A DNA stretch of 64,000 nucleotides, taken from the NCBI GenBank assembly GCA_020809705.1, contig CP085835.1, positions 496,001-560,000 on the forward strand, written 5' to 3'. The first letter of the stretch is position 1. Each line of letters begins with the position of its first letter. The DNA is from Calonectria ilicicola. Its lineage: Eukaryota > Ascomycota > Sordariomycetes > Hypocreales > Nectriaceae. The notes below the pieces were generated by a model. That model saw only the letters and a list, made by a program, of their open reading frames with translations. It had not been told where the DNA came from and made no database searches. This document shows, piece by piece, positions 2,277 to 30,552 of this stretch. The translations under genes were made by a program, and so were the position numbers.

Positions 2277-2871
2277 ATTTAGTTTTCTCAGCTAGATGAA
2301 TATAATACTTAGCTATCCTCTATCCTCCTAGCCATCCTCTTGACCGAGTCTTAGTGACTAACCAAGGCATTAATTGAATGTCCTCAATTTACGCTTTGAC
2401 ATTTCATACCGCGGGGAAACTCACCCTGGATCGCACCATCACCAAGTTTCATTTCAAGGACGTTTCTCGGAACGGTTGCCTCATTAGGAAAGGCGAGTTT
2501 AGTCTCTCGGCCGTTAACCCGATGCCCCACAAAACGTCGCGTGACGAGATTTCTCGAAACGAGCCGCGTGACGAGGCTACAGGCCGACGAAGAAGCAGCG
2601 ACATTGGTGACGGAATACCCAAGGGCTTCAAGGCCATTTCATTACCTTATCTTAGCCCATATTTTCGAAGAGATTTCACATCGCATTGTTTATTAAAGCG
2701 GTTATATTCTCAAGAGCAGAAGGGGAAAAAAACACGAATGAATCGGGGATCCAAAACAAAGCACATTTTACATCTTACTCACGGCTCTCTCCGTGTTTGG
2801 GGACCACAACGGTCGTCACAGAGTGAACAAAAAGTAAGGCAAAAAAATTTATCACAATTGAAAGGTGATCC
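2277..2871. other. Intergenic between P450 and tRNA-iMet
   Basis: No family-like gene. An open frame across 2378-2932 has no recognisable content and runs into the tRNA gene on the other strand. The Pol III terminator of the tRNA lies here, listed separately. Confidence 0.5.
2841..2847 (-). terminator. Pol III oligo-T terminator of tRNA-iMet
   Basis: Seven consecutive T on the minus strand, 25 nt beyond the tRNA 3' end at 2872. This is the expected RNA polymerase III stop signal and supports minus-strand Pol III transcription of the tRNA. Confidence 0.75.
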
Positions 2872-2997
2872 TAGCAATTGCACGTTTCGATCGTGCGACC
2901 TCCGGGTTATGAGCCCGGCTGGGGTGAGTTAGCAAATATTGATTTCGGTATCATGTGTGAGTCATAACATACCGCGCTTCCACTGCGCCAAATTGCT
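2872..2997 (-). tRNA. Initiator tRNA-Met (CAT) interrupted at position 26/27
   Basis: Removing 54 nt (2919-2972) leaves a perfect 72-nt cloverleaf with segments 7-2-4-7-4-1-5-7-5-5-5-7-5-7-1. The acceptor stem AGCAATT pairs with AATTGCT, the D stem is GCGC/GCGC, the anticodon stem CCGGG/CCCGG encloses loop CTCATAA, and the T stem is GCACG/CGTGC. Initiator hallmarks are the A1:U72 pair and the T loop ATCGAAA, which replaces the elongator TTCGAAT pattern. The A box (TGGCGCAGTGG) and B box are intact, and a T7 terminator follows. The insert is not at the canonical tRNA intron site 37/38. It sits exactly between G26 and the anticodon stem. The anticodon corresponds to plus-strand 2909-2911. Confidence 0.88.
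2919..2972 (-). other. Spliceosomal-type intron inside tRNA-iMet
   Basis: The 54-nt insert begins GTATGT, has a branch-like GCTAAC (plus 2928-2933) about 10 nt from its end, and ends CCCCAG. These are the same signals and size as the protein-gene introns in this window. Exact excision at GT...AG gives the cloverleaf without adjusting any base. A TSEN-type tRNA intron would be expected in the anticodon loop instead. Whether it is removed by the spliceosome is inference. Confidence 0.75.
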
Positions 2998-3411
2998 TTC
3001 TTGGATGACTGCAGAGTGATCAAATGATGCTTATCAATGACACAATGCCCTAGCCCTTCTCGTGTGGGGCGCGTCTCGTTCCCCACTGTCATACACGACT
3101 GATTTTATTGGCCTACCCACCACGTTGTACCCATTGTCATTAATCATGGTAATGAACATTCACTATTGTTTCACCAGAAGCAATTTACTTACCCTACGTG
3201 AAATTCTTTCCCAGAGAGGTTAGAATGTTGGTTAAATATCTGTTACATCAGCTATTGATCAACCCAGACCCATGTTCACATCCCGTAGTTTGCACATCAC
3301 ATCGCATAAGTTAAATGGCGAATTACCTAATGCATGTTTCGACCAACACGATTTACCCGTGCGATAATATGTTGATCATATATATACTCCTTTCATTTAT
3401 AAGCGGCTATA
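2998..3411. other. Intergenic between tRNA-iMet and sugar transporter 3' end
   Basis: No gene seen. The right part is the probable 3' UTR of the transporter, which ends at 3412 on the minus strand. Confidence 0.5.
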
Positions 3412-30428: not shown

Positions 30429-30433
30429 AAAAA
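30429..30433 (-). terminator. Pol III oligo-T terminator of 5S rRNA
   Basis: A run of T on the minus strand directly follows the 5S 3' end, as expected for RNA polymerase III termination. Confidence 0.8.
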
Positions 30434-30552
30434 ACATACAACAGCGAGGATTCCCCGGTCGTCACCGACCCGAGTGCTAATTCACCGCTTCTCAGCTTGA
30501 CTATGGGAGAGCGGACGGGATCCCGTATTTTCTGAGAGCTATGGTCGTATGT
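30434..30552 (-). rRNA. 5S ribosomal RNA
   Basis: 119 nt read on the minus strand. It starts ACATACGACCATAG and ends GCTGTTGTATGT, and these termini pair as helix I of fungal 5S rRNA. In between are GGGATCCCGTCCGCT and the loop E/helix V region GGGTCGGTGACGACC. A second helix pairs GCTCTCAG with CTGAGAAGC. Size and ends match ascomycete 5S genes, which are commonly dispersed single copies outside the rDNA array. Small overlapping open frames here are artefacts. Confidence 0.93.

Follow-up and report, generated by a model that had tools for sequence, protein, structure and literature searches.

Initiator tRNA genes with introns of the messenger-RNA type in the fungus Calonectria ilicicola

The window analysed here is a stretch of 64,000 nucleotides from Calonectria ilicicola (GenBank assembly GCA_020809705.1, contig CP085835.1, positions 496,001 to 560,000). 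An initiator tRNA-Met(CAU) gene with an unspliced length of 126 nt occupies positions 2872..2997 of its minus strand (5' end at 2997), as identified by a match to the Rfam model RF00005 and by the nine-gene family in the genome described below. Exon 1 (2973..2997, 25 nt) was assigned by sequence and numbering to tRNA positions 1-26 and contains the A box at about 2990-2980. It is followed by an mRNA-type intron of 54 nt between positions 26 and 27 (2919..2972). This intron starts with the 5' splice site GTATGT (2972-2967), contains CTAAC in a GCTAAC context (2932-2928, presumed branch A at 2929) and ends with the 3' splice site CAG (2921-2919). Exon 2 (2872..2918, 47 nt, positions 27-73) carries the anticodon CAT, a T loop with A54 and A60, and the B box GATCGAAAC (2892-2884). 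On the same strand, a run of seven T (2841..2847) that starts 24 nt past the gene is the presumed Pol III terminator, and a putative promoter element, AAGGGCTAGGGCA, is located at 3046..3058, 61 to 49 nt upstream of the gene. Beside the tRNA gene, at 601-2275, lies a cytochrome-P450-like gene that was named by eye; its frame shifts after 1620, from introns or decay. An oxidoreductase encoded in the window shares 79-80% identity with proteins of Colletotrichum and Nectriaceae. In a database clustered at 90%, the RNA polymerase I subunit RPA2 from the same genome shows 95% identity to a sequence named Fusarium nematophilum and 94% to another named Fusarium lateritium, which fits a member of the Hypocreales, probably of the Nectriaceae.

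The first-pass annotation had described this locus as an initiator tRNA gene interrupted by an mRNA-type intron. When the sequence was re-read, the coordinates, the strand, the intron length of 54 nt and the GTATGT, GCTAAC and CAG signals all proved exact. The insertion site is also correct, as standard tRNA numbering with position 17 absent places the insert exactly between 26 and 27. Upon its removal the flawless 72-nt initiator cloverleaf that had been claimed is obtained, with fully paired acceptor, D (4 bp), anticodon and T stems. The spliced molecule has A1:U72, GGG:CCC at 29-31/39-41, the CAU anticodon, A20, A54 and A60. We take A1:U72, G29-31:C39-41, A54, A60 and CAU to be hallmarks of eukaryotic initiator tRNAs, and all of them are present here.

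The host genome, which comprises 69,930,349 bases in 12 contigs, was searched with the 126-nt gene as a DNA query. Nine genes were found on six contigs (L001-L009), the ninth in two pieces. The count of initiator genes that the first-pass annotation had proposed is thus nine in all, and each of them carries an intron at the same place, between 26 and 27. These introns are 52-55 nt long. Seven begin with GTATGT and two with GTAAGT (GTAWGT overall), all nine contain CTAAC, whose presumed branch A is 9-10 nt away from the intron end, and the 3' splice site is CAG in six, AAG in two and TAG in one. Judged by these signals they would be classed as U2-type introns, with a GTRNGT-like donor, CTAAC at fungal distance and an AG acceptor. 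The probability that a random insert starts with GTAWGT, has CTAAC at that spacing and ends with AG is approximately 6e-8, a rough figure that assumes equal base frequencies. The signals shared by nine diverged copies are more than chance, and the comparison of the copies supports the presence of an mRNA-type intron in this tRNA gene.

Pairwise identity of the introns ranges from 42 to 98% with a median of 0.55 (36 pairs), and the 60-nt flanks have ungapped mean identities of 0.37 upstream and 0.34 downstream. The spliced sequence is the same in eight of the nine copies, and the window copy is intact in that its exons match those of seven other copies base for base. The remaining copy, L004 (G000 C7), differs by a single base, which leaves the acceptor stem with an A4:C69 mismatch and which we count against a fully functional family. 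The sequences had already been seen when the script that splices them was written; a plain alignment of eight copies by coordinates gives the same picture. In this alignment exon 1 is unchanged in all eight copies, the exon columns are invariant except for one, and the intron columns without variation comprise GTA-GT, a single additional A, CTAACT and AG. Since gene conversion of the exons should bring the intron along, the simplest reading is that both the mature tRNA and the splice signals are under selection.

One copy, L009, contains a second mRNA-type intron, of 54 nt, at 46/47 (L009 613-666, G000 C2; GTAAGC..AACTAAC..CTCGAG). The insert is missing from the other eight copies, which have an empty site, and its removal gives the exact sequence of the paralogues. 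Its 5' splice site is GTAAGC and its acceptor would be GAG. Acceptors of the AAG and GAG type are weaker 3' splice sites, and we count them against splicing of the affected introns. The second insert represents an apparent intron gain within a tRNA gene, which suggests that tRNA genes in this fungus can still acquire introns.

The layout of the genes is that of Pol III type 2 genes, with A box, B box and T run, and points to transcription by Pol III. Both boxes are intact and lie in the exons, with the intron between them, and in all nine copies a run of 6-15 T starts 7-29 nt past the gene. The element AAGGGCTAGGGCA starts 51-63 nt upstream in only five of the nine copies, one of which deviates from it at one base. 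None of the nine unspliced genes contains TTTT. Avoidance of TTTT was considered as proof of Pol III transcription and was rejected as not significant, because 79% of random 54-mers from the window lack it as well; ten introns without it would therefore have a chance of about 9%, even if independent. Alternatively, Pol II could make longer transcripts that undergo ordinary coupled mRNA splicing, the tRNA being processed out afterwards. The signals are indeed those of mRNA introns, and the window contains eight motif-matching candidate introns, seven of them elsewhere than in the tRNA gene, versus an average of 0.9 and at most 3 in 30 resamples drawn at random. Against this stand the intact boxes and the downstream T run in every copy, which resemble a self-contained Pol III gene, and we regard a Pol II origin as extremely unlikely.

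Standard tools recognise the unspliced genes poorly. RF00005 matched 2997..2872 with 34 bits (gathering threshold 29) in a search of a 501-base stretch, with the insert looped out. The initiator gene was absent from the output of a whole-window Rfam scan at the gathering threshold, the sole match of which was a 5S rRNA gene. Unspliced initiator tRNAs were likewise not reported by Rfam at E-values up to 0.1 in eleven loci of 1.2-3.2 kb, and ARAGORN called no tRNA in the window. When seven unspliced initiator genes were submitted to ARAGORN, it left one uncalled and assigned the other six to His, Val, Arg or Pyl, each with a false intron; unspliced L004 is read as His. The spliced forms were called Met(cat) in all seven cases given (L004 and L005 were not among them). 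Misreading of this kind may be the reason why such genes escape notice. The locus L302 (G000 C4:3898368-3898459), called Ser(aga) with an intron by ARAGORN, may in fact be a different isoacceptor that was misread.

According to the first-pass annotation, several intact intronless initiator genes, together with decay of this copy in relatives, would speak against its proposal. Several forms of search found no initiator gene without an intron in the 69.9 Mb assembly. The exact 17-mer of the D arm occurs nine times in the genome and is followed each time by GGTA(T/A)GT. With up to two mismatches it matches 29 places, nine of which are the known genes; the other 20 are not initiator tRNAs, and neither TCATAA nor ATCGAAA occurs within 200 nt of the match start. 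Two anticodon/T-arm patterns returned eight places each, which are the same eight intron-bearing genes, and no contiguous copy. The ninth gene, L009, was missed because its second intron lies inside the pattern. With the joined 72-mer as query, 16 pieces from eight genes were obtained and none crossed the exon junction. This query missed the known gene L009 as well and hence is not exhaustive, so that the case for a lack of intronless copies depends chiefly on the pattern searches.

Outside the host genome, the exact 18-mer of exon 1 occurs 83 times (11 stretches in viral_contigs, 72 in genome_contigs), and none of these occurrences is an initiator tRNA gene. A single one has CATAAC within the following 150 nt (bacterial contig, 126 nt, not tRNA-like). 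The 20-mer of the anticodon arm is present in at least 120 stretches of viral_contigs, which, from what is known of bacterial fMet, we regard as tRNAs of bacteria or phages. A 32-mer of Neurospora-like sequence had no matches.

These searches bear on the possibility that every one of the nine loci is a pseudogene or relic and that a working initiator gene lies outside the assembly or is too divergent to be found. The completeness of the assembly is not stated, the genome DNA search scores the best candidates only, and the genes go unrecognised by annotation tools, all of which would fit such a scenario. However, the exons are the same in eight of nine copies despite diverged introns and flanks, splice signals and downstream T runs are retained in all nine, and none of several forms of search brought up an intronless copy from 69.9 Mb. 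Thus, we consider it highly unlikely that the family consists of relics.

Fungal U6 snRNA genes, for example those of S. pombe, are known to contain mRNA-type introns. This precedent, to which the first-pass annotation had referred, holds in the same genome: two U6 genes were found among the best 47 of 4404 candidates, and both have introns of this type (L047 1486-1540, G000 C1; L048 1555-1612, G000 C3). The introns are 55 and 58 nt long, show GTAAGT..CTAAC..CAG and each include the B-box-like sequence GGTTCGANTCC. Their positions differ, as one precedes ACAGAG and the other lies within GAT|TAGC. Rfam displays the insert in L048 only; the match of L047 begins inside the intron, and its exon 1 was placed by likeness to L048. 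The 5S rRNA gene of the window (30433-30552, minus strand, 86 bits) matches its model without a long insert, and so does the single SRP RNA gene that was found (292 nt versus 293 model positions). Among the best 63 of 2542 RF00005 candidates, 12 exceed 80 nt in length, and a simple pattern for mRNA-type signals found none in these 12. Other isoacceptors with an mRNA-type intron would score low and may be missing from this list.

Nuclear tRNA introns are ordinarily excised by the TSEN endonuclease, and in fungi this enzyme measures to position 37/38. All of the initiator introns lie off this site, at 26/27 in nine copies and additionally at 46/47 in one. The tRNA endonuclease family tRNA_int_endo (PF01974) is matched twice in the genome, and ARAGORN found ordinary anticodon-loop introns in two elongator tRNA-Met genes (L298 and L299) and in Lys and Arg genes. 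With TSEN-family genes and ordinary tRNA introns in the same genome, the TSEN route is present, and the initiator introns form a class apart from it. In the consensus fold of eight unspliced copies the four tRNA arms are kept and the intron folds into an additional arm that loosely pairs the 5' splice site with the branch region. Several single-copy folds differ from this consensus, none of its 28 pairs is backed by a compensatory change, and the extra arm with the 5' splice site facing the branch region is only a suggestion. By eye, no bulge-helix-bulge was recognised in the consensus fold and none recurred across the nine single folds.

Might the insert nevertheless be a non-canonical intron removed by TSEN, similar to the ectopic introns of red algae, with incidental mRNA-like signals? 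The endonuclease family and its usual substrates are there, and PMC4090602 describes ectopic introns in C. merolae, with a bulge-helix-bulge, and in nucleomorphs. However, the conserved columns of the intron coincide with the spliceosomal signals, the same signals recur in the intron at 46/47 and in both U6 genes, no bulge-helix-bulge was recognised by eye in the consensus fold, and the fungal enzyme measures to 37/38. Removal by TSEN is therefore very unlikely.

From these data we infer that the nine genes very probably constitute a working nuclear initiator tRNA family with U2-type introns, transcribed by Pol III and spliced by the spliceosome, on which translation initiation would depend. 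Pol III would transcribe each gene from the exonic A and B boxes and terminate at the downstream T run. The spliceosome would then excise the intron in the nucleus, with branching at CTAAC, and the exons would be joined directly, involving neither TSEN nor tRNA ligase. The ends of the pre-tRNA would be trimmed by RNase P and tRNase Z. With no intronless copy found, the whole initiator pool of the cytosol would depend on spliceosomal splicing, and with it translation initiation; the spliceosome of this fungus itself has U6 genes that bear introns. Protein synthesis in this fungus thus probably depends on the machinery that splices messenger RNA. To our knowledge U6 is the only precedent for the action of a spliceosome on a Pol III transcript, and we count this rarity against the proposed pathway.

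In a broader sense, it is likely that the initiator introns represent a second, spliceosomal class of nuclear tRNA introns, that initiation requires their splicing, that this arrangement is an old one which related genera have in common, and that tRNA genes can still gain introns. Its age and its wider occurrence are suggested by the divergence of the introns among paralogues. If all of this is true, an essential tRNA would be under the control of the spliceosome, and splicing capacity would be coupled to translation initiation in a loop that is closed by the intron-bearing U6 genes. Nuclear tRNA introns would no longer be TSEN substrates without exception, and spliceosomes would be able to act on tRNA precursors made by Pol III. 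As ARAGORN, a standard tRNA finder, misreads the genes, the same arrangement may be hidden in other fungi. With eight empty sites alongside, L009 provides a natural example in which a tRNA gene has apparently gained a spliceosomal intron. A literature search that did not extend to subscription papers, tRNA databases or preprints listed no description of spliceosomal introns in nuclear tRNA genes, so that an earlier notice is possible.

Like canonical TSEN introns at 37/38, the initiator introns interrupt a nuclear tRNA gene, and they differ from these by the site at 26/27, the spliceosomal consensus and the fact that no bulge-helix-bulge was recognised by eye. A position away from 37/38 is shared with the ectopic introns of Cyanidioschyzon merolae and of nucleomorphs. 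The introns of C. merolae are of the bulge-helix-bulge type, and the nucleomorph of Guillardia theta has ectopic introns of 3-24 nt (PMC4090602, PMC3978253). According to a 2017 paper, U3 and U6 alone among small structured RNAs are known to be often interrupted by an intron (PMC5832005). The introns of fungal U3 snoRNA genes resemble the present ones in being spliceosomal introns in a structured non-coding RNA, although U3 is not a tRNA. The parallel with fungal U6 includes the class of gene, since in both cases an intron with spliceosomal signals lies in a Pol III gene, and GTAAGT, CTAAC and AG also occur in both U6 genes of this genome. Here, in contrast, the host RNA is the initiator tRNA and the promoter boxes are exonic, whereas the U6 introns of the same fungus hold a B-box-like sequence.
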